NCBI RefSeq assembly: GCF_024713975.1
Contig: NC_091098.1
Location: 13,750,316 to 13,814,315, forward strand
Length of the DNA stretch: 64,000 nt
Direction: 5' to 3'
Source of the DNA: Paralichthys olivaceus
Taxonomy: Eukaryota > Chordata > Actinopteri > Pleuronectiformes > Paralichthyidae
Every line of letters begins with the position of its first letter. The first letter of the stretch is position 1. The translations under genes and the position numbers were made by a program. Positions 41,077-63,526 of the stretch are shown piece after piece. The notes below the pieces were generated by a model, which saw only the letters and a program-made list of their open reading frames with translations, did not search any database and had not been told where the DNA came from.

Positions 41077-41277
41077 GTAGTCTTTAAACAACCCCTGGGC
41101 TGACAACGGCTGTCTGCATCTAGTGGCAGAGGAGCCCTTCTTGTTTCTGAGGTTGCAGGAGCACAGTGGAGGAGCGAGGTCTGAGGCTGAATACTCCCCC
41201 CATTAGTCTTTGAGGAGGGGGGAGTAGGAGGAGGGGGCGGAGGAGGAGGGAAAGGAGCTGCTGTAAAGACCCCGAGC
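41077..41277 (+). promoter_or_regulatory. Spsb1 5' UTR part of exon 2, with a G-rich tract before the start codon
   Basis: The acceptor is a T-rich tract ending ctctag at 41076, and exonic sequence runs from 41077 into the start codon at 41278. The last 75 bases include gaggaggggggagtaggagg and agggggcggaggaggaggga, both purine-only apart from single T and C bases. Such a tract could form an RNA G-quadruplex close to the start codon; this is inferred. Confidence 0.6.
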
Positions 41278-43452
41278 ATGGGGCAAAAAGTCCCTGGTGG
41301 CATCAAAACCATTGATATGCGGGATCCGGCATTCAGTCCCCTGAAGCTGGAGCTACAGGCCCTGAGTCACACCAAGCCGTCTCGACTGGATCTGCTGCTG
41401 GACATGCCGCCTGCCGGTTTGGACGTGCAGGTCCAGCACTCTTGGAACAATGACGATCGTTCCCTCAACATCTTCGTCAAGGATGACAACAAGCTGGTGT
41501 TCCACAGGCACCCTGTGGCGCAGAGCACAGACGCCATCAGGGGCCATATCGGCTACACGAGGGGTTTGCATGTGTGGGAGATAAGCTGGGCCATGCGTCA
41601 GCGGGGCACGCATGCCGTGGTCGGAGTGGCTACAAGTGACGCCCCGCTACATTCTGTAGGCTACACAGCGTTGGTAGGGAGCAACGCTGAGTCCTGGGGC
41701 TGGGACCTGTGCAGGAGTAAACTCTACCATGATGGCAAAAACCACCCAGGGAAAACCTACCCAGCCTTCCTTGAGCCAGACGACACCTTCATAATACCAG
41801 ACTCCCTCTTAGTAGTCTTGGACATGGACGAGGGAACTCTGGGTTACATAGTGGATGGACATTATCTAGGCGTAGCGTTCAGAGGACTTAAGGGCAGGAA
41901 GCTGTACCCCGTGGTGAGCGCCGTGTGGGGACACTGTGAAATACGAATCCGGTACATAAATGGTCTTGATCGTAAGTACAAATCTTTAACCTTTTTATTA
42001 TCTTTCTTAGTTACTCATTTCTCTCATGAGCAACTGTTTTGACGTCCTGTGCAAAGCTTTTGCTTATTTACATACATTTATTGATGCAATAAATCAAGGT
42101 GTGACCATCGAGGGTTTGTCACACTAAAAGAATATAAGAAGCTGGGTTACTGTAGAGTGGCATTGTTTACTTGCATCAATATTGCTGTCTCTCAGTTATA
42201 TTAGGTGGAACATGTGATAATATGACTAATATGTACTTTACCTTTGTCACCTAGGTAATATAAATTAATATTTAACTTTATTTCTGAGTCACTACTTCTC
42301 ATGTTAGTCATGTTAGAATAATATGACTGTGTCCTGCTCTTAGTAAGGAGTACTGCATGTAATTTTCAAATGAGCTGTAGTTTGGTGGAGTATGTATCTC
42401 TTTAAAACATCCAATAGTACTTTATGTACAGAAAAACATGCTTGTTTTTCCCCAAGAAAAATTTAAAATGATTCAAATTGGACTAATCCCAATTATTCCA
42501 TGTAAAAGAGTCATGAGCTTTCAATACAGAAACCTAGGTGCTTATCAAAACATGTCGTACCCTCATGTCCCAAATGCTCTGTGCTCATTAGATTTTTATG
42601 CTCAGCTCAGATTCCTTGACCTAGTTAAGTCGAAAGAAGAAGCCCGACAAATGCAGTGATATGCATAGAATTCACTTTGATATGACATTGCTCTTACTGT
42701 TTGATGTGGAGCTGGGAAATCCCCGATCTTTTTCAAGATTAAAATCCCTACAAAATATGTATCGTAATGTAATTTAGGTTAAGAATGTGGCAAAGTATAA
42801 ATTCATATTTTCTATTTTCTCTGAGACTCATTTTGTTTGCTCGCTCTTTGATCAGATATTTTGACATTAAAATGGTTGTATGATTACTTCAAGACTTGTA
42901 TGTTAACATTTTTACCTTTTTTGTTATGTAGGGTTTGTAAAAAATATATTTTTTAAAATGATTGTCTCTGTATTCATATATACCACACATGGTATTTGCA
43001 TTGCTCTAGATTTTTTCCCCCAGGAACATAAATATGAATTCAGCAGGTGTTTATAAGAGCAGAGTCGCCTGTTGACTGACGCTGAGTAATGTGCCATGTA
43101 ATGAGTTCATTAATCGTAATCAAGGTAAAAGTTTGAAATAATTGTGATGTTTGATTTGAGCTTATTGTAATGTAACATGTCCATAATTAAATGATGTGAT
43201 ACATTACACACAGCCTCTCCAGATCACCAGAGTTTAGGTCACCAGCATGCACTCTCCATTCTACCATTTCAAACACATAAACATGCTCTTCCTTACACCT
43301 CTCCCCCTCTTGTCTCCCTTTCAGCTGAACCCCTCTCTCTCATGGACCTGTGTAGGCGTTCAGTGAGGGTGGCGTTAGGAAGAGACCGCCTGAGTGAAAT
43401 CCATAGACTGCCTCTGCCGGCTTCTCTCAAGAACTACCTGCTCTACCAATGA
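41278..43452 (+). CDS. spsb1: SPRY domain- and SOCS box-containing protein 1, complete CDS
   Basis: SPSB1 is the substrate receptor of a Cullin-5 (Elongin B/C) ubiquitin ligase that recognises D-I-N-N-N-type motifs, for example in Par-4 and inducible NO synthase. Coding exons are 41278-41971 and 43325-43452. The join GAT C|CT GAA restores [12 protein letters not shown], giving 273 residues as in human. Residues about 55-230 form the B30.2/SPRY domain, with [42 protein letters not shown] and [11 protein letters not shown], including the ligand-contacting V-W pair at residues 216-217. The second exon encodes the SOCS box: [18 protein letters not shown] (Elongin B/C box) and [14 protein letters not shown] (Cul5 box and C-terminus). 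The start context is agcATGG. Neighbours match the human order H6PD-SPSB1-SLC25A33, except that H6PD is missing. Confidence 0.97.
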
Positions 43453-48970: not shown

Positions 48971-49315
48971 CACAGTGTAGAATTCAGTGGTGAAGTTGCT
49001 TTTTGCACCTGAATACCCCTCCCCTCCCCCCTCCAAACACGGAGGAGAACCTGTGGTAGACTTTAGTTGACATAAAAACTCAAAAGGTGTTTGTTTGGTT
49101 TAGGCCACTGTTAAAAACCTGGCAGCCTCTGTAGAGAAGGACCGCTTCCAGATGTAAATACAAAGTTTTTAAATATAAACAGTTCTAGGGTGAAGGAAAC
49201 AACCATTTGCACAATGTAGATGAAACACACTAGTGAAACCATCACTAGGATTATTTTCTATTCAGTTCCTGCCAGAAGATCTCTTTCACCTACATCTTAC
49301 CCACTGGACCTTTAA
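48971..49315 (+). mobile_element. TTAAAGG-ended MITE, copy 4, left end eroded
   Basis: It begins at cacagtgtagaattcagtgg, so the first few terminal bases have decayed. It ends catcttacccactggacctt followed by taaa. Inside are gagaacctgtggtagacttt and cataaaaactcaaaaggtgt, which match copy 1. It lies about 80 bases before the CG-rich slc25a33 promoter region. Confidence 0.78.
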
Positions 49316-49399
49316 ATTGTGGGCTGCGTTAACCAGTGTTACATGACACAGCCATCAGAGTACACACTGTCTGTCAATGATTGGGTCTGGTGTTTCACA

Positions 49400-49733
49400 C
49401 ACAGGCCGGTGAAGGTCGGAGGGGTCCGGGCAGATCGTCGAGCATGTGTGTTTGTTGTCGCTTCTGTTACGTAACGAACTGAGAAAGAACAAGGTGTCGT
49501 GCACGTGTCCCTACGTCATAGACAACACCCCCGCCCGGCCCACTGACGTCAGCGCGGGTTCCTCATCAGCTCATCGGGCCGCTACGCCCCGCGCTGACAG
49601 CTCCACCAACCCGGCACAGATAGAGGGATCGACGGGAGCTCATCGGGAAAACCACCTCTGCGACCGCTTCTTTCACCCGGGGACAGTTTAAACCGAAGCA
49701 CGATAAGAGTATGGTGGCTGTTTGAAGAGCACG
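49400..49733 (+). promoter_or_regulatory. Slc25a33 promoter and 5' UTR with CRE and E-box
   Basis: CG-rich sequence directly before the start codon. It contains a perfect palindromic cAMP response element TGACGTCA (49544-49551), an E-box CACGTG (49502-49507) and a CRE half-site in ctacgtcata. No TATA box is evident. Human SLC25A33 responds to insulin/IGF and mTOR signalling, so growth-responsive elements would be fitting, but factor binding is inferred. Confidence 0.5.
49711..49725 (+). CDS. Short upstream ORF (4 codons) before slc25a33
   Basis: ATG GTG GCT GTT TGA ends only 8 bases before the slc25a33 start codon. Its context, agtATGG with A at -3 and G at +4, is as strong as that of the main start. 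If the transcript starts upstream of it, it would be expected to dampen translation, because so short a gap leaves little room for re-initiation. The transcription start is unknown. Confidence 0.45.
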   Translation: MVAV

Positions 49734-52700
49734 ATGGCACAGAAAGACACGCTGCTTCATCTTTTCGCCGGGGGGTGAGTCACATTATTGATACTAATTC
49801 AAACCGGTGTAACGTTATTATTACGTTAGGGGGAAACGAAACGTTGAGATTGAAGCCGGGGCGTAATGTTCGCTGCCTCATCCGTTTGAAACAAAAGAGA
49901 ATTCACGCTTTAAGCTAAAGGTTTCTCAGCCGCCAGCCAGCATGCTAACCGAAACACCGAAAGGCGAGCTAGCTCGTGTTAGCATAGCACAACGGCTGTG
50001 CTCTCTCCAGGTTCACTGTCCTTCACCAGCGGACACATTCACCACGTGAAATCTGATGTGTACATTTAATCCACATATTAGACTAACAACACGGCCAACG
50101 TTAGCGAGGACAGGGGACTTTTCTTTTCATTTCTGTGCGTTACATCCATGCGGAAGTTTGCTAATACCTCGTAGCCACCGTTAGCTACAAGATGTATCCA
50201 GGTTATCGGGTTTGTTTCGTGTCCAAACAACCCGGTGTTTTATTCAACACATTGTGTGAAGACTTGGGCTATAACGTGTAACTCAACACCGTGAGTTAGC
50301 GGTTGGTCAGGTGTCCTCTGGGCCGACCGGTCGCGGTGCAGTCTCGGGAACATTTGGCCTTTAGGTACGTGATGTCTCCGGTGTTACGTGGGACTTTGCC
50401 AACAGGGAGCTCCGTGTTCTGACGCGACAAGCTCGTCGCCACCTGGCCGAAGAATGCGAACTGTTCCCCCCCAGTATATGTTCACGTAGGACCGTGTCAC
50501 GAACATGAAGCTGGATGACATCCAGTGCATGTTGAGGTCACATTAAAGCAACACAGGCTTGTTAAAAATGACGCCATTTTACCCTTGAAATGTTATGACG
50601 TGCATGAAGTTTGGCTCCATATGTAGAATAGGTGAATTGATCTGTACATGTTTTTGTTTAAATGTAACATCAGTTGTGTTATGGCAGTGCCAGCGACTTT
50701 GTTTTTATTGTAGCTGTATCCGGCTGATGGGGTGCAGTGTCTCCAGCATCTGCATGAAGTAAACATTTACCAAAAAAACCAGCTGAGCCTGCATGGCAGC
50801 CTTTGTCCTCTTTCTTCATTATATGTGCAACGACACCAGGGAGGTCCCTTTCGGTCTGTCAGATGAAGTATTATTGAAAAATGAATCCGCAATCATAATT
50901 TCTTCTTTCTATATTTTCTAACAATAACATAGAGGAGAATGATTAGTGAATAGACAATTGGAAGTTTGACTCTGTCCTCCAGACATGAGACAGTACAGAG
51001 GCTTAGTTTAATCTGTTCCAGACTTCTAAGCCTGTCACTGATACGTTTGCATACACGCTTCATAAATGATGTGCTATTGAGACATGTGAAGAACCATATG
51101 AATCAAAAAGTGGTGCGGACATTGAAAAGTGCTGCTCTCTAAAAATAGTCTTTCCCAGTGCAACTGGAACGTCTGAGCCACAAAACACTTAACCAGATGT
51201 GTTGGTAACCCTGTGTTACCACTGCTAAATAAGTCTTGGTTCTGGCTGCTCATATGCGTTAAGAAAAAAAAAAAAAGTCTCCTCAGTCAAGGCTCACATG
51301 GGGTAATAGGATCATTTTGAGCACACTATTATAAACTGGTTAATAATTGTATTATAATGACAAAACACATCTATTGGCCCATAATCCTAATTTTAATGTT
51401 ATCCATTTGCAGGTGTAGTGGTACGGTGGGGGCCATCGTGACCTGTCCCCTGGAGGTGCTTAAGACACGGTTGCAGTCCTCTGGCCTCACCCTCCGGCCC
51501 GTCTTCCAGGTTCATCTAGGCACCATAAGTGGTACGGGGGTTATTCGACCGGGGCCTGTTACACCTGGCCTGCTGCAGGTCCTACGGTAAGATTTCTGTC
51601 TGTGCAAAAATTGCTACAACTTGCTATGTAAGCTGTCCCTTTTGAGGTATTTGTATTTCATTGCATGCAAAGGGACAAAATGTTCCCTCCTCACAGTCTA
51701 TGTACTTTGCTCTTTATCCTTATTATGGAGGAGCAGGCATGCTTGTTGACTATTGTAGTTGCAGTTTGACTTGCTACTGTGTGAAAACCTCAGTGTTTAC
51801 ATGTGTTTGTTGTGTTGACTGAACAACTTTGTCAAAGTTACTGCTTTAAGCCTGTAGAAATGCTTTGGGAGAGCCTTTCATTTGCACTCTACTTTATAGT
51901 CGTGGTTTCATAATCCTCTCCTACATAAAACAGATTCAAGTACACACTGTCTTTTTTGTATTTAGTGTCTTAACCAGCTGTTCAGGGTAACACAAGTCAT
52001 GCTTTCCCAGCAGGCTTTAAGATATGCTTCAAACAAGGTGTTCTTAAAATGCTCTATTGTGAATCTGCTTAGGTTCGGGAAGCCTAGGAGCAGCCTCAGT
52101 AGGACAAATGGAAGGAGGGGAGGTTTTAAGTAGGGGGCTGTGTCAGTGTTATATTACACTTCGGACCATGGCCACATAATTAACCTGCCTGAACTGGTGT
52201 CTGCTTTAGCTGAGGCCATAAAAGCTACTGGTGCCATAAGACAAATTTTTGTCTTTGGAGAACAAATATTTCCTGTCAGTTCAGGTGCTTTTCTAGTATT
52301 TGAACTTGCTTTAACTGATACAGATTCTTGTTTTCAGGGCTTGTAGAGGGTTGTCTTTGCAAGGCTGTGTGTAACATTCATATTGGACCTGAAAATAAGT
52401 GATTATACATCATTTGTTGAAAAGTTGTTGGGAAGTAGAATGTATATTGGACTGCTTTAGGGCATAACAAAACACAGCAGCAACTGCAGTTCTAACCACC
52501 CCTTCATTTGGCCTCAGGCAGACCTGAATGTCATCTGGAGAATGAAGGTTGCTATTTACAAAACAGACACAAAGTCCCTGGGATGTGGCTGACGTGACAA
52601 GCCAAGCGCTGCAGAGGGAACCGGGTTCAGTGTATAAACGTATGCAAAACCAGCTCGGGTGAACAGGACTGGTGTAACTTTTAGACGACTGCATGAGGGA

Positions 52701-55698
52701 GCTATCTTAATCATGCCCTTTAATAGAGCCTGGGATAGTCATACTGACATTTGCTGTAATAAATGAAGAGACCCTTCAATGTGTACTGTGGTGTGTATGG
52801 ATAAAAGTCTGTCAGTTATTTCATTGTATGATGGTTTAGGTCTCTGCTTTTATTTCAGATCAATTCTTGAAAAAGAGGGACCAAGATCACTTTTTCGAGG
52901 TCTGGGACCGAACCTTGTTGGTGTGGCCCCCTCAAGGTACAATGAAACACATTTGAGTTGCTCTAATATATCAGTGTTGTCCATCTCCAGTTCCAGCCAT
53001 AACAGTGTTAATTTTGATGGTCAGAGTTAATGATACCTTCTTGTTATAGTGCAAGTCAATGATAAAACACAAGGAAGTGTTATTCTAAAATAATAAACAA
53101 AGCAGAGGGAGAGTCACAAAGGGAAGCAATGATGATTTCTCAGCAGCCTTGTTTCCGTGTATAAGGACAGCACAGATTGTACTTTACCACAGCTGCTAAC
53201 AAAATAAAACCAAAAAAGGGGGGAAGCTGTGTTTACATTTTACTTTTAAATGGCTGAAAACACAAACTGGCTGTATAAACAGGAAGCTGTTGCCATGGCA
53301 TTGATGTTTGAGTCTCCCCCTAACTTTACAGGAAACTAGTCCACATGAATGAACAACATAGCAGTTTAGTTTTTACACAAACAGACTGGCAATGAGAATA
53401 ACTGGGGATGCTTGATCGTGTTTAAATTTGTGTCGGAAACCTTTGCAAGGAGTTGTATCAATGTTTTTTGCACCTTTCTTAAATTTCAATTTCACCACAA
53501 AAATTCTGAACTTTGCCCTGTTGGCTCATGGTTGATAATGTCCATACAACAGTAATATAACTGTAAAAGAAATTGTCCTAATTCACGTGCCTTAAATGTT
53601 GATCAGACTTTGAAACTTTGTTAAACTGGAAAGGGTCACAGGTTTGGGTCATACATTTCCCCATGGTTAATCAGTAGCCACAGCATGAGCCTTTGCTCTG
53701 TGACTCCACTGTCCCTCTGATCCACTGGCCAGCTCAAACACGCTTACATTCAGAGCAGCTCAGTTAGCATCTGTGGTGCCCAGTGCTTATTCAGCCCATT
53801 CTGGTGCAGTAACAGTTTGTTCCAGAAACCAAGCAGAGGGAACAGGCACTGGGAAACCGACTGCTCTGGATGCACTCAAACACTCTCATCAGCCCAAATT
53901 TAATAATTTGCATATTTGAACAGCCGTCACATATTTATAACATCTAAGCACTGTGTGTAAATCTTTATAGCTACTTCTGTGCAGAGTTCTCATCAGTTTG
54001 TTCTTTATTTCAGAGCCATTTACTTTGCTGCGTACTCAAAATCGAAAGAAAAGTTCAATGGGCTGTTTGTCCCTAATAGTGGAGTGGTGCACATGTCCTC
54101 CGCTGGTGTTGCAGGTGAGAATTGTGCATGTTCCCCTTTGTTATAAAAAATAATGTGGTGCCAACTTAAGTCTTTTTAAGGCCTCTCAAATGAACATTGT
54201 CAAGTTCAGAAAAGGACTACATTTTAATATTCCTTGACTGTATATCTGACTGAGCAGTATATTTTGCAAGTTTTTATTGTGGTCTTATAATTTCCCTCAA
54301 TTGGCTTGACAAAAACATTTTCCCTTCACAACTTTGTTTGTAATTATGCGGACCAGGTGATATTACCCTGTAGTGTAAAACAGTATTTTCTTATCTCCCT
54401 TTTCCTTAGCTTTTGTTACCAACTCTCTGATGAACCCCATCTGGATGGTAAAGACCAGGATGCAGCTGGAGAAAAAGTGTGTGCTCTCTTTATTTCACCT
54501 GCCCTGTGTGTTCTTGAGTTTTTAAATCTTTAGACAGACTGCAGTTTAAAACAATCAGATTTATTTTAAGGGCTTTGCAGGGGGTAAAGGTTATAATGTG
54601 ACCTTTCAGCTTTAACTGAGCCTGCCTTCGTGGCACTGACCTTGGGTTACACTGTGTTTGAGACGGAGCGTGTGACCTGCGCCTTAAATACACAGTGCTG
54701 ACGCACTGTCCTGCGTCCAGGGAAAGAGTCTATATTTACATTGCCGAGTACAGGGCAGTAGTATCATGTGATGTCACACGCACAAGTCTTGTCTTTGAAG
54801 AACACTTGCTCTGTAACACAAAACTATGGCTTTATGAATGAGGGGGAAAGATTCAAGTATTTCAAACAAAATTAAGTTAAATTAGGTTCTAATTCAAACT
54901 ATTAGGGAAACTACTTAGCTCCCTTGCTTTCTTCAAATGGATAAAACATGTTGCAATTTTAATATCTTTTAAAGTAGGAAATGCTTCAAATGCAAACGCT
55001 GTTTTCTTAAAATGTATAATTGGGTTTAGTACTGTTCTGATACCTTGTGCTGGGGATTTATCATATTATGATTTTAGCACTAAAGAGCCTGACCTGTCTG
55101 ATCTTACAGAGCCAGAGGAGAGAAGAAGATGAATGCACTGCAGTGCGCCCGCTACGTTTACAGAACAGAAGGGATCCGTGGATTCTACCGAGGCCTGACT
55201 GCATCTTACGCCGGCATCTCGGAGACTATGATCTGCTTCCTCATCTACGAGACACTGAAGAAACACCTCGCCAAGAGCCAGTTCGCCTCCCCAAATGGCG
55301 AAAAGGAGAAAGGAGCATCAGACTTCCTGGGTTTGATGATGGCAGCTGCTTTTTCAAAGGGTTGTGCGTCCTGCATCGCCTACCCACATGGTAAACACTT
55401 GTATTCATTGTTTTTCCTTTGCAACAATCTAATGTCAGGGTAGAGTATTCATATTTACTTAAATGGCTAATACTATTTTTGTGCTTCTTTCTCCGCAGAG
55501 GTCATACGGACGAGGCTGCGCGAGGAAGGCAGCAAGTACAAGTATTTCTTCCAGACAGGAAGGTTAATAGCAGTGGAGGAAGGTTATGCAGCTTTTTATA
55601 GAGGACTCATTCCACAGCTAATTAGACAAATCCCTAACACAGCCATCGTCCTCTCCTCTTACGAACTCATTGTCCATCTGCTGGGAGACTCCAAGTGA
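49734..55698 (+). CDS. slc25a33: Mitochondrial pyrimidine nucleotide carrier, complete, seven coding exons
   Basis: SLC25A33 (PNC1) exchanges pyrimidine nucleotides across the inner mitochondrial membrane, supporting mtDNA and RNA synthesis. Exons are 49734-49774, 51413-51586, 52859-52936, 54014-54114, 54410-54476, 55110-55390 and 55499-55698. They join in phase to 313 residues; the human protein has 321. All three carrier repeats are present with their Px[DE]xx[KR] signatures: PLEVLK (residues 26-31), PIWMVK (141-146, with W in the acidic position as is usual for this subfamily) and PHEVIR (246-251). Further matches to human include [58 protein letters not shown] and [20 protein letters not shown]. 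The exon 5 donor is gtgtgt rather than the commoner gtaagt. Its neighbour spsb1 is as in human. Confidence 0.96.
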
Positions 55699-57710: not shown

Positions 57711-58615
57711 CACTCATCGGCCACTGTATAAGGTACACCGGTTCAATTGCATGTTAACACAAATAGCTAATCAGCCAATCACATGGCAACAACTCAATGC
57801 ATTTAGGCATCTAGACGTGGTGAAAACGACTTGCTGAAGTTCAAACCGAGCATCAGAATGGGGAAAAAATGGGATTTAAGTGACTTTGAACGTGGCATTG
57901 TTGTTGGTGCCAGACAGGCTGGTCTCAGTATTTCAAAAACTGCTAAGATACTGGGATTTTCACGCACAACCATCTCTAAGGTTTACAAAGAATGGTCAGA
58001 AAAAGAGAAAATATCCAGTGAGCAGCAGTTGTGTGGACGAAAATGCCTAGTTGATGTCAGAGGTAGGAGGAGAATTGGTGGTTCAAGATGATGGAAAGGC
58101 AACAGTTACTCAAATAACCACTCTTTACAACCAAGGTATGCAGAATACCATCTCTGAACGCACAACACGTCGAATCTTGAAGCATATGGGCTACAGCAGC
58201 AGAAGACCACACCTGTCAGCTAAGAACCATGTCCATCCCTTTATGACCACAGTGTACCCATCTTCTGATGGCTACTTCCAGCAGGATAATGCACCATGTC
58301 ACAAAGCTGACATCATCTCAAACTGGTTTCTTGAACATGACAATGAGTTCACTGTACTCCAGTGGCCTCCACAGTCACCAGATCTCAATCCAATAGAGCA
58401 CCTTTGGAATGTGGTGGAACGGAAGATTTGCATCATGGATGTGCAGGCGACAAATCTGCAGCAACTATGTGATGCTATCATGGCAATACGGACCAAAATC
58501 TCTAAGGAATCTTTCCAACACCTTGTCTAATCTATGCTACGAAGAATTAAGGCAGTTCTGAAGGGGGTCCAACCCGGTACTAGCAAGGTGTACCTAATAA
58601 AGTGGCCGGTGAGTG
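57711..58615 (+). mobile_element. Tc1/mariner element, internally deleted and frameshifted
   Basis: The ends form inverted repeats: left cactcatcggccactgtata then aggtacacc (57711-57739), and right, read inverted, cactcaccggccactttatt then aggtacacc (58587-58615). They match at all but a few positions, with TA-rich flanks suggesting TA target sites. The element holds a decayed transposase, described in the next entry. The whole copy is about 0.9 kb, shorter than complete relatives because the middle is missing. It sits between slc25a33 and the SRCR-Ig gene. Confidence 0.92.
57858..58530 (+). pseudogene. Tc1-type transposase remnant with DD36E-like spacing
   Basis: It opens MGKKWDLSDFERGIVVGARQ with a helix-turn-helix reading ISKTAKILGFSRTTISKVYK, then shifts frame near 58060-58090 and continues DGKATVTQITTLYNQGM. 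At about 58227 LSAKN runs directly into HVHPFMTTVYP, so the segment holding the first catalytic aspartate is deleted. The second aspartate (QQDNAPCH, codon 58285) and the glutamate (SPDLNPIEHLW, codon 58396) remain, with 36 residues between them rather than the 34 of classical Tc1. The copy cannot encode an active enzyme. Confidence 0.9.
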
Positions 58616-58621
58616 TCTGTA

Positions 58622-59130
58622 TATGAAGATAAAGTATATAAGTAAGTAATAACATAATCCATAATTTGCAGAGTAGTAATAATAAGATACGCAGAATATA
58701 AATCTATATTTTCAATTTACTAAATATAATTTACTAGTGAAAAATAAATATGCAATAATGAAATAAAAGTAGTCATTATAAAGACATAAGAACAAATAAA
58801 TTAAAATAACATTGAAGGCTGAACACTTGCATAAAATATACTTGCATATAATGATGGTTCAGTGTTTACAAATAAAGTGAGAGATTAGAAACCTTATTAC
58901 CTGGGTTCACATATTTAATTTGTTTGATATCTCACTGATCAACAGAAAAAACACAAAAATTACAATGATCTGATGATAATGGAGAACTACATTGTTTTTA
59001 AAAGATGGTAAACGTACATCTTGTCCTACTGTCTATTCTGAAATGTTTGATTTGTAACTGATCAACAGAGAACAAATACAAAGTTTACTATAATCTGAGA
59101 AACTTCTTCCACGCTTGTATATGTGAAGGT
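58622..59130. other. AT-rich spacer after the Tc1 element
   Basis: The sequence is dominated by aataa/tataa words; I recognise no gene, repeat family or regulatory motif in it. Confidence 0.5.
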
Positions 59131-59149
59131 GAATGTGACTCTCTGGGGC

Positions 59150-59700
59150 CCAGGCTGTGAGATCAGGCTCCGGATCCCGAGCTCCTGAGCCGCTGAGCAG
59201 AGTCGTGACCCCCAGAGGAGATTACTGGCGTCAGAGCTGCGCTGCGGCGGAGCAGTGACCTCTGTCTGCCGCAGAGAGAACAGCTCACCAGCGGCGTTAA
59301 TTCCCGGACTGTTGACGACGTGATTGCGGCGGCCTTGACGGCAGATAGCTCACCCAGCGTCACCCCGACACGCAGCCTCCCTCCCTGGACATGTCGTTGT
59401 CTTGAGAGCCGCCAGCAGACGCTCTCCACTCCCACACTACACTTATAATAATCACCGTCCTCTCCTCCGCGCTGCTCTTTTACCTACGATGTCTTTAACT
59501 CACTTCCGCTGCTAAGTGCTAGTTGGTCAGAACTTTAGCCGTTCGCTAGCTCTTAGTACTGTTAGCCAATCCGAGTCTCTCCGGCACACCAGCTAGCTAA
59601 TGTCTTGTGCGGTCCTTGTGTTTAAACGGCGGCCAGCACCATTGCCGGGACACCGGGCATTCTCCCCCCCCGGGCGGCTGATGGAAGGGTGAGGGGAACG
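59150..59700 (+). promoter_or_regulatory. CpG-rich promoter and 5' UTR of the SRCR-Ig gene
   Basis: CpG density rises sharply against the AT-rich sequence on the left, with cggcgg, cgcggc and ccccccgggcgg words. It ends directly at the signal-peptide exon (ATG 59701, context aacgATG with A at -3). A minus-strand open frame at 59163-59435 is probably a by-product of base composition, although CpG promoters are often divergent. Confidence 0.5.
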
Positions 59701-62700
59701 ATGCTGAGATTCCTCCACATCCTCCTCCTAGCAGGTGAGCTAAGCTAGCTAACGTCGGATAGCCTGCTAGCTAGGTATGAGCTCGGTAGTTTATGTGATT
59801 ACGCAATAGGATAACTGTGCCCGTTACTCTATTTAAATTAAAGTATTAAAGTCTTTTCTCTTATTTGTGAATTAAGACACATTATCTTGTAATTATAGTT
59901 AATTCACACTAAGCTTCTCTTTAGCCTAATCTCAGTTACTAAGTAGCTAGCACTGAATTCCTATTGAAATAAGTTGAATTTAAAAAGTATAGTGGAGTTA
60001 TATATGTGTGGTCATTTGGAGGCTGTTGTATGTTGAACAGCTGAGCTCAACCTTATTGTTTAATGTGGCTAAATAATCTTTTAATTGTCACACAACACAA
60101 CGATCTGTCCACCTTCACCTGTTCTATCAATGAGTTTAAACACTTATGTCTAAACTATGACAAATGTTGTACCACAGATCGATCTATTTCCATAATTTCC
60201 CATTTGTCTTAAAAAAATAGTTTACTTGCACAGTGGAAATATGTTTGTTTCTTGTATATATATATATATATATATTTCAGTAGAAAGAAAAAATAACTGT
60301 TCATAGCAGGATTTTTGTATTGGATGAGCTGTATTCATTTGGCTAGTGTTAGGTGTAGTTAATAGACAGCTAGCTAAGTAGCTGCTGTTGTTGGCATGAA
60401 TGTAATTGAATTTGTTTTTGTCAGATAATAATTCCATGTCTGTAATGTCCTCCTCACAGGCCTCTTAGGTGTGGTGTGGGATAGAGTCGATGCTTTTGGT
60501 AAGTGTGGGATTTCTCTGTCTCATCCTCATGCACTGAACTCCAGACATTCTCCTGAGATTCTCCTGAGGGGCTGTCTTTGACAACGCTAATGTCATTCAA
60601 AATAATACAAATATCCCAGGATGAAAAAGAGTAGCCATACACGTAGAATATGCGAACGAAGATGTCGACTTGAAAAGACAACTAGATTCAAGAGCCCTTG
60701 AGGATAATGGGTGGCGCTGGTGTCATTGTTCTATAAACAAAAGATTGTGATTGCCTCAGCAGAATTTATACGTCATGTCCTGCCTCCTGCATGCTTTACT
60801 CAGACGCCACCCCTCGCCTGAATGCTCCAGAGATTTTCCTGTTGTTGTGAACTCATCAACTCCCACAATCTCATTCTCTGGAGAATATTCAGACCCAATT
60901 GTCCAGATATTTCTGGAGTTCATGTGTAAAAATGGCTGAACAAATTTTTCTCTGATCCACAGGTGGGGTCAGACTAGTGGATGGGGAGGACAAGTGTTCT
61001 GGGAGAGTGGAGGTACTCCGCCATGACCAGTGGGGGACAGTTTGTGACCATGGCTGGGACATCCGGGAGGCTGACGTTGTTTGCTTGGAGCTGGGCTGTG
61101 GTTTAGCTGAATTGGCCCTTCATAGTGCAAGATTTGGTGAAGGTAGAGGGGCGATCTGGCTGCGCCATGTCCAGTGCACTGGACATGAGTCCAGTTTGAC
61201 ACGCTGTGCTGTTGTCCTCCACAGTAACTCCTACTGCACCCATGAGAATGATGCAGGGGTGAAATGCTCAGGTGAGACTTTGGTCTGATAAGGAATTTTA
61301 TTTTCCAAGGAGCACTGCCAGACGGTTGACTGATTTCTGCTTTTTTGATCCATAGAGGATATACAAAGCTCACTGTTATACAGTGTGACAGGTTTCTCCA
61401 TTGAACATAAGTTAACAATACGGACATAACTAGAAAACACACAATTTATCTGGGACAGTGAGGCATGTCATTTTGTTAAGAGGTGTGGATTTGATTTGAT
61501 TTGACCAGCAATCTGTTTCCCACCAGTCCATTAATCTGTGCAATTATCCAAAACCTTCAGCAATAGCAGAAAACCAATGTCTGTTATGACAGCAACAGTC
61601 TTGACCCATGAGGGACTTTACTTGAGTCTGTCTGCAGAATCATCCTCTGTCTTCAAAAATCACTTTAGACTCACCTCTTTGAAGCTTACCTTCTCTGTAT
61701 TTGTACCTAATTTGAGTCTTGCTTTGGACAGAATTGTATGAACGAATGAATAAATGTACATAGTGTTTGTTTGAAGAGGGGTGGCCTGGGCAAAGAAATA
61801 CATTTTTTTAAGGAACGAGGAAGGAATACAACATAAATGTAGGATTGTACACTGAGATTTGTGGGTTATCTGAAACACTCGGATAGTATTTGAAATAGTC
61901 TGCATGTCAGCATGGTATTCGATAAGCTGGGTACAGTCTATTGGATAATCCTCACATTTTGACCTGTCTTTACTCAGGTACCCTTTTAACACCCACCCTC
62001 ACCCTGCTGTCACATCACACTGTGTTCTCACCCGGCGAGGCTGTTCGCTTTGGCTGCAGTGTTCTGCCGGGTCACCACCTCAGTGACTTCCACCTGTACA
62101 AGCACGGAGTGTCCACTCCACTGGTTACACAGAGGGCAGACCAGACCCAGGCCGGGGTGGAGCTCACGCTGTCCGACATAGAGACTTTCCACCAGGGCAG
62201 CTACAGTTGTTGTTACAGGATCAAGGGTGGCTTCCCCTCTCAGCTGCTCAGCTCTCCGCCAAGCAACTCCATCAACATCACCGTGGGTGAGTCAAAACTG
62301 TATTGTCTAATTTGTATTAAATCTATTAACCTCCAACCTCCATTCTCATAAGCAAAAGCTACATTTATGGTTTGAACATGGCTCATAACGCCACCCAGCG
62401 TTTTAAACCATTTTGGACCTTTCAGGGCCAATGTTGAAGTAGAGTTTGAGACATGTCTTCGTCATGACGTTCATATATATTTGAAAAAGTAAAGTTGGTG
62501 GAAAAGACCAAATAATCTTAAAACATTTTGTAATAACAAATGTAATTTAGGATAAAGATTGTTATCAAGTTAAATCTGAATCCCTGCAGTTTCAAGAGAG
62601 TCTCATGTTATCTCAATGACCTCTCATAATCTATTGATTTTTATTTTTCATCCACAGTGGAGCTCTTGACTCCCCAACACTGGTATAACACGTCCTCTGA

Positions 62701-63526
62701 GGCCCCGGCTGGTTCCGTAATTAAAGGCCACAATTTTAATATCACCTGCTCCACCCTGCAGCAGTACCCCGGAGGTTCCTTCCAGCTGCGTCTGATCCGG
62801 TCCAATGGCACCGTGCGCCAGTCCCTGCCTGCCCTCGCCCCGTCCGTCACTTTCACTTTTTCCAACGCCCAGAGCTCCAACGAGGGCTACTACTACTGCC
62901 TGTATCGGGTCCAACTGGGTGGACGCACCTTTGTTTCCAGAGAAAGCCAGCCCCTGCCTATAGCCATAAGAGGTGAAACTGATAGTATTACATACTATAA
63001 AGATGTGTTAAAGATTAAGAAAGGTATCATGTGTGCTAATAATCTGAGTGGATAAAATACTGAATGATACTATAATATGAATATTACATCATTTAGAGTC
63101 TATCTAGATTTCTTTCCTGACAGTTTTTTATTGTACAGATTTGATGTTTTCCTCTAGTTTACAAGTTGTTACAAGTTGTTCTATCAATGAAAACCTGAAT
63201 GAAACTCACAGGTTACTTCTCTGACCCCCAGACCCAGATCCACTATTGAGTCCAATGGTGATCAGCTGGCTTGTGTCTGGCCTGACATTTGTGGTAGCTG
63301 TCATTGTTATAATTATTGTGGCCAAGGTACTATGTAACAAGGAGAAGAAGCCCTCTGAACTAGAACGAGAGACCAGAACCTGTAAGTTCCACCTACTGAG
63401 CTCTTTATACTTCAGACTGATATGACTTTTAGAAGATGTCATGTATGTCTACCAATAGTAACAGATGTGCTTTTCTTTACAGGTGTGGACAACACTTATG
63501 TTGCCTTATCAATTAACAAGCTATAA
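59701..63526 (+). CDS. Type I membrane receptor: SRCR + two Ig-like domains, unnamed, complete
   Basis: Seven coding exons are 59701-59734, 60460-60498, 60963-61271, 61978-62286, 62658-62972, 63232-63381 and 63483-63526. They join to exactly 400 codons (399 residues plus TAA), and every intron is phase 1, the pattern of shuffled extracellular domains. Residues 1-24 are a signal peptide (MLRFLHILLLAGLLG...). Residues 25-127, one exon, are a scavenger receptor cysteine-rich domain with eight cysteines (36, 52, 65, 70, 96, 106, 116, 126), the group B pattern. Residues 128-230 and 231-335 are one-exon Ig-like domains with FGC...YSCCY and ITC...YYYCLY cysteines and several N-glycosylation sequons. 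A membrane helix spans about 344-366, followed by KVLCNKEKK. The tail ends DNTYVALSINKL, one YxxL motif at Tyr391 without the usual ITIM -2 residue. Surface immune recognition or adhesion is likely but inferred. I know no named gene with this layout. Confidence 0.85.
60255..60275. repeat. (TA)n microsatellite in intron 1 of the SRCR-Ig gene
   Basis: About ten TA units. Confidence 0.95.

Follow-up and report, generated by a model that had tools for sequence, protein, structure and literature searches.

A divergent member of a four-gene SRCR-Ig-TM family in Paralichthys olivaceus as a candidate cell-surface receptor

The window analyzed in the present study, a 64,000-nucleotide stretch of Paralichthys olivaceus DNA, contains at 59701-63526 (+) a gene (C6:13810016-13813841) that combines one SRCR domain with two Ig domains and a transmembrane (TM) helix. 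We consider its product to be a type I cell-surface receptor, the most divergent of four SRCR(n)-Ig(1-2)-TM genes in this genome and probably a protein binder that does not require a cation, and we assign a probability of roughly 0.6 to this reading. The gene, its domains, its family, the exon plan shared with that family, the type of its Ig domains, and the degeneration of its cation site are read directly from the DNA, and it is from this sequence that we infer the function.

Gene model and genomic neighborhood

The seven exons (Table 1) sum to 1200 nt and encode 399 residues and a stop codon, and GT-AG borders and phase 1 were found at six of the six introns, which bears out the preliminary description of this DNA as holding a complete SRCR-Ig-Ig-TM gene. 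No stop codon or frame break was observed, and the splice sites and the cysteines of both the SRCR (8) and the Ig domains were all intact. The protein is arranged as a split signal peptide (predicted), an SRCR domain, two Ig domains, a TM helix, and a short tail, and is, judged by its sequence, a type I membrane protein. In a Pfam search, it matched SRCR at 1.5e-28 (residues 30-127, profile positions 1-100 of 100), Ig_2 at 1.8e-11 and Ig_3 at 1.2e-10 over two stretches each, and Ig_C19orf38 at 2.2e-7. One hydrophobic segment was found, at residues 345-370, which runs into CNKEKK and shows a 19-residue mean hydropathy of 2.88 from residue 352. The ATTAAA listed in Table 1 is the single poly-A-type hexamer between the gene and the end of the window.

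Table 1. Features of the window gene (window coordinates) and exon plans of its three paralogues
Feature	Position	Strand	Description
CpG-rich promoter / 5' UTR region	59101..59750	+	GC 0.58, CpG o/e 0.76
Exon 1	59701..59734	+	First half of signal peptide, MLRFLHILLLAG; phase-1 donor gtgagc
Exon 2	60460..60498	+	Second half of signal peptide, 39 nt
Exon 3	60963..61271	+	Single group B SRCR, 8 Cys; phase 1-1; genome scan 5.8e-27; cation-site residues degenerate
Exon 4	61978..62286	+	Ig D1, OSCAR/LILR-like; Pfam Ig_2; OSCAR 1.3e-6 (query = Ig pair)
Exon 5	62658..62972	+	Ig D2; kin = membrane-proximal Ig of C5a and C19
Exon 6	63232..63381	+	Juxtamembrane, predicted TM helix (hydropathy), basic stretch CNKEKK
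Exon 7	63483..63526	+	Tail end, sole tail tyrosine Tyr391 in DNTYVALSINKL, stop
Poly-A-type hexamer ATTAAA	63746..63751	+	
Paralogue C5a (L017)			SRCRx2, one Ig exon found, TM, then exon with YENF
Paralogue C5b (L018)		minus	SRCRx2-Ig-Ig-TM; tail exon with DYINF, TYEKP, HYDEL, NVYVDV, FYKL
Paralogue C19 (L019)		minus	SRCRx9-Ig-Ig-TM; tail with CYELEPL

Activating receptors that couple to adaptors carry a charged residue within the TM helix, and the helix core of the window protein, MVISWLVSGLTFVVAVIVIIIVA, contains no charged residues; an adaptor-coupled activating receptor was rejected on this point, and a partner of the FcR-gamma/DAP12 type should not be needed. Regarding the tail, its sole tyrosine lies in N-T-Y-V-A-L (YVAL), and the residue at position -2, N, departs from the ITIM consensus (I/V/L/S)xYxx(I/L/V), on which ground an ITIM-bearing inhibitory receptor was also rejected.

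The CpG-rich region at the start of the gene ranked 60 of 1267 overlapping 650-bp segments by CpG o/e. Between -600 and +50, the CpG o/e was 0.76 versus 0.22, 0.36, and 0.28 in the three paralogues, and between -300 and +50 it was 0.74 versus 0.28, 0.48, and 0.19, which suggests that the window gene may be expressed more widely than its paralogues. The 12 segments with the highest CpG o/e lie at 49301-50500, upstream of the first carrier ORF (51321), and are probably the slc25a33 promoter.

The adjacent upstream gene, on the same strand, is identified as a mitochondrial carrier by Mito_carr matches in the ORFs 51321-51587, 52767-53027, and 55102-55440 (+), which agrees with slc25a33. A SPRY match was found in the ORF 41191-42039 (+), which, given the human gene order, may be spsb1. 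A Tc1/mariner-like transposase (HTH_23 and DDE_3) is located at 57807-58527, ~1.2 kb upstream of the window gene, and this element is apparently disrupted because it is spread over two overlapping frames. Long minus-strand frames are present downstream of the window (L028-L030), and a Pfam scan of four of these gave no match over the cut-off. The gene had previously been described as interrupting the human SLC25A33-TMEM201 order; the carrier does adjoin it upstream, but a single Ima1_N (TMEM201-type) domain was found, ~470 kb distant on the minus strand of this contig (C6:13339377-13339796). This is no simple insertion, and, thus, the region is rearranged, not merely interrupted.

The SRCR(n)-Ig-TM family and its Ig domains

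The SRCR domain scan of the Paralichthys olivaceus genome gave at least 85 matches. A search with the window Ig pair returned at least 11 non-self matches, the best five of which (E 2.9e-8 to 0.03) were within 2 kb of SRCR exons (C5:27719356-27719583, C19:10600187-10600447, C5:27649150-27649401, C5:27649496-27649744, and C19:10600910-10601137), and the other six (E 0.65-1.7; four on C8, one on C3, and one on C22) were away from SRCR matches; the genome searches scored the best candidates, and their match counts are minimum values. When the C19 Ig pair was used as the query, at least seven matches were obtained, all five non-self matches at E<=10 fell in the other three SRCR-Ig genes, and the window gene was recovered with its D2 at 7.1e-6 and its D1 at 2.0. 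When the C5b Ig pair was used, the best four of 21 non-self matches (E<=1) were in C19, C5a, C19, and the window gene (the last at 0.006), and the remaining 17 weaker matches were outside SRCR-Ig genes. Fourteen of these 17 fall in one stretch, C8:1.6-2.3 Mb (e.g. L016), a possible leukocyte-receptor or Fc-receptor-like cluster that would be among the nearest non-SRCR kin of the Ig pairs.

In all three paralogues, the SRCR and Ig exons are in phase 1 on both sides, and the signal peptide is split into exons of 31+36, 31+36, and 52+27 nt (C5a, C5b, and C19; by eye), with several splice sites scoring weakly, above all those of the TM and tail exons, the ends of which are less certain. The SRCR-Ig-Ig plan of the window gene is not a matter of chance because three further genes in the genome share the exon order, and this common order would also speak against a split of the SRCR and Ig exons into different transcripts. 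The picture of a lone unnamed gene, accordingly, requires amendment: the gene is as it was described, but three more of its kind exist in the genome, and its place in this real four-gene family is well supported. Neither a named orthologue nor a SRCR-Ig receptor family with this plan was found in the literature searched, and a scan of viral contigs for the family gave no match.

Two features of the paralogues are of interest in themselves. The two SRCR exons of C5a (L017 3515-3826 and 4375-4686) share 98% DNA identity, which marks them as a recent exon duplication. The C5b tail exon (L018 7273-7589, reverse-complement coordinates) holds several tyrosine motifs and is likely to encode a signaling tail.

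Concerning the type of the Ig domains, the window Ig pair alone had its best PDB matches in OSCAR (1.3e-6), PIR-B (2.9e-4), and LILRB1 (0.0016). A profile built from seven Ig exons of the four SRCR-Ig genes (alignment A1) and searched against the PDB only was led by PIR-B (2.6e-32), LILRB2 (2.3e-27), LILRA6, LILRB3, LILRB1, and FCRL5, followed by CEA, CD276, and titin, which ranked above NKp46, KIR, and CD89, and then by NKp46, LILRB4, KIR3DL1, CD89, OSCAR, GPVI, and CHIR-AB1 (among the best 60 of 4240 matches passing E 0.5). In these sequence searches against the PDB, the Ig domains were most similar to the LILR/KIR/FCRL type, and the Ig exons of the four genes are, by this measure, of the LRC/FcR type. 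The resemblance to fish leukocyte-receptor-like families that had been noted earlier was, thus, correct as to leukocyte-receptor type (PIR-B, LILRs, FCRL5, and OSCAR), while the resemblance found was to mammalian LRC/FcR receptors. The AlphaFold models obtained for single Ig exons were of low quality (pLDDT 60.5 and 58.3), and the Ig tree had no starred branch.

The window gene might instead have arisen through an independent fusion of a DMBT1-like SRCR exon with an LRC-type Ig pair, its plan being convergent with those of the C5 and C19 genes, and this we regard as unlikely. Such a fusion would agree with the position of the window SRCR nearest the C8 repeats (52% identity), with a second signal exon of 39 nt versus 36, 36, and 27 nt in the paralogues, and with D1, which is without a strong family match: a search with D1 alone gave C19 D2 (E 0.27) and a single further locus (E 3.4), and this weak best match suggests that it may have a separate origin. 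However, the best kin of D2 in the genome search come from C5a and C19, in each case the membrane-proximal Ig exon (2.9e-8 and 4.7e-6; 36-38% identity), the window gene is recovered in turn with the Ig pairs of C19 and C5b, and two independent fusions that arrived at one Ig type and one domain order are less likely. We retain the membership of the window gene in the SRCR(n)-Ig-TM family, with D1 as its weak part.

The SRCR domain and its cation site

A group B SRCR domain is encoded by a single exon. The number of cysteines is six to eight in group B and six in group A (PMC2906472). The window SRCR has both group B features, namely, 8 cysteines between residues 36 and 126 (36, 52, 65, 70, 96, 106, 116, and 126) and a single exon in phase 1-1, which, together with the Pfam match, upholds its initial assignment to this group. 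In the PDB, it matched best to DMBT1, at 99.3 bits, and to CD163 repeats taken singly, at a maximum of 96.2 bits; the CD163 chains top the SRCR table because nine repeats are summed.

In SRCR8 of SALSA/DMBT1, cation site 2 is formed by D1019, D1020, and E1086 and site 3 by D1020, D1058, D1059, and N1081, and either D1019A or D1020A abolishes the binding of the ligands tested, according to PMC7043408. When these residues were placed by spacing on the conserved SRCR motifs, D1019, D1020, E1086, D1058, D1059, and N1081 corresponded to D, H, N, R, H, and Y in the window SRCR, such that one of the six is identical to SALSA and two of the six are D/E/N/Q. Of 24 group B SRCR exons compared across seven loci, 17 carry D/E/N/Q at each of the six positions, and the seven degenerate ones are the window SRCR, C19 repeats 2, 4, 6, 7, and 8, and C20 repeat 2 (one of two in C20). 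All SRCRs of C5a and C5b and four of the nine of C19 keep intact cation sites; each of the other six loci has at least one full site, while the window gene has a single SRCR and no backup. Along C19 (L019 1828-5687, reverse-complement), the repeats that lost the site (2, 4, 6, 7, and 8) and those with an intact site (1, 3, 5, and 9) partly alternate.

A cation-dependent scavenger of the SALSA/CD163 type was rejected for the window SRCR on the state of sites 2 and 3. That the window gene encodes a CD163/DMBT1-like scavenger receptor, which binds and takes up ligand in a calcium-dependent way, seems improbable: the PDB matches to DMBT1 and CD163 and the YxxPhi motif of the tail, set beside YREM of CD163A, are in its favor, but the dual cation site is degenerate and there is one SRCR only. 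In the SRCR tree, the window SRCR did not join those of the paralogues, and was nearest the DMBT1-like C8 repeats by path as well as identity, on a long branch and with no firm support. The loss of its cation residues could reflect decay rather than specialization, and a view of the whole gene as a duplicate in decay, its frame still open but its constraint weak, is the least probable of the readings considered, since the degenerate site and the long branch that would fit it are accompanied by an unbroken frame, intact splice sites and cysteines, and a CpG-rich promoter.

Proposed function and relation to known receptors

In the reading that we prefer, the family would have arisen when phase-1 LRC/FcR-type Ig exons were joined in between the SRCR and TM exons, prior to the divergence of the four genes. 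In view of their intact cation sites and tails with tyrosines, the paralogues are probably signaling receptors for anionic or microbial ligands, much like CD163 and WC1. The window gene stands apart from them through its lone degenerate SRCR, its CpG-rich promoter, and its one tail tyrosine (YVAL). Its receptor would display the SRCR outermost, atop two Ig domains, and would probably bind a protein partner without calcium through the SRCR face, the Ig pair, or both. The SRCR face, no longer bridged by cations, may bind protein as the SRCRs of CD6 bind CD166 and CD318, and clustering may lead to uptake (YxxPhi) or to SH2 docking through Tyr391, with the proviso that YVAL may match YxxPhi by chance.

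Among known receptors, CD6 has a long tail. It is likewise an SRCR receptor for cell-surface proteins, binding CD166 through domain 3 and CD318 through domain 1 (PMC11747410), but has three SRCR domains and no known Ig. The starfish protein tabulated as SRCR/(Ig)4/TM, a possible nectin relative (PMC7286890), has the same SRCR-Ig-TM order, but with four Ig domains and in an echinoderm, and SRCR together with Ig has been reported for invertebrates (PMC7308585). CD163, WC1, and DMBT1 share the group B SRCR, and CD163 and WC1 are receptors with tail tyrosine motifs, CD163A having YREM in its tail and its short-tail form internalizing ligand (PMC2906472). The window gene differs from these three in its one SRCR and degenerate cation site. 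To our knowledge, CD163, WC1, and DMBT1 have no Ig domains and LILR, PIR-B, OSCAR, and FCRL, the best sequence matches of the window Ig domains, have no SRCR; the window gene differs from the latter families in a tail without a canonical ITIM.

The closest mammalian parallel overlooked in the preliminary list of group B SRCR proteins, whose members were said to lack this SRCR-Ig-Ig order, is FCRLS (mouse Fcrls), a chimera of FCRL Ig domains and a type B SRCR with a split signal peptide and no TM-encoding segment, thought to stem from FCRL/CD5L recombination in a eutherian ancestor, as presented in PMC7940838 and also described in PMC4016189. As far as those accounts go, FCRLS resembles the window gene in joining Fc-receptor-like Ig domains to an SRCR-B domain behind a split signal peptide, and differs in a second signal exon of 21 bp versus 39 nt. 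The window gene, for its part, has the SRCR first and possesses a TM helix and tail, and its TM exon rules out FCRLS. In FCRLS, the Ig domains precede the SRCR. Among vertebrates, FCRLS is the sole case of an SRCR-B domain joined to Fc-receptor-like Ig that the literature found describes.

If four fish genes form a membrane-anchored family in which the SRCR lies outermost, the SRCR and Fc-receptor-like Ig systems would appear to have come together on two or more occasions. It is conceivable, if rather doubtful, that ray-finned fish possess a so far undescribed receptor class that unites SRCR arrays and LRC/FcR Ig pairs in a single molecule, the large members of which, such as the nine-SRCR C19 gene, are the counterpart of the WC1/CD163 co-receptors, e.g. 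the cod M130-like gene, and that the window gene is a member in which binding of a fixed self ligand has replaced dependence on cations. Many fish SRCR genes have received M130- or DMBT1-like names from pipelines. One of these, an M130-like gene of Atlantic cod with group B SRCR, is a marker of T cells expressing putative tcrg and tcrd, and its authors did not succeed in confirming it as CD163 (PMC9276791). If some such fish genes prove to be SRCR-Ig receptors, cod 'm130' and similar markers should be reinterpreted. The fish family would provide a genetically tractable setting (medaka, and zebrafish if the family is present) for the role of the SRCR and Ig combination.
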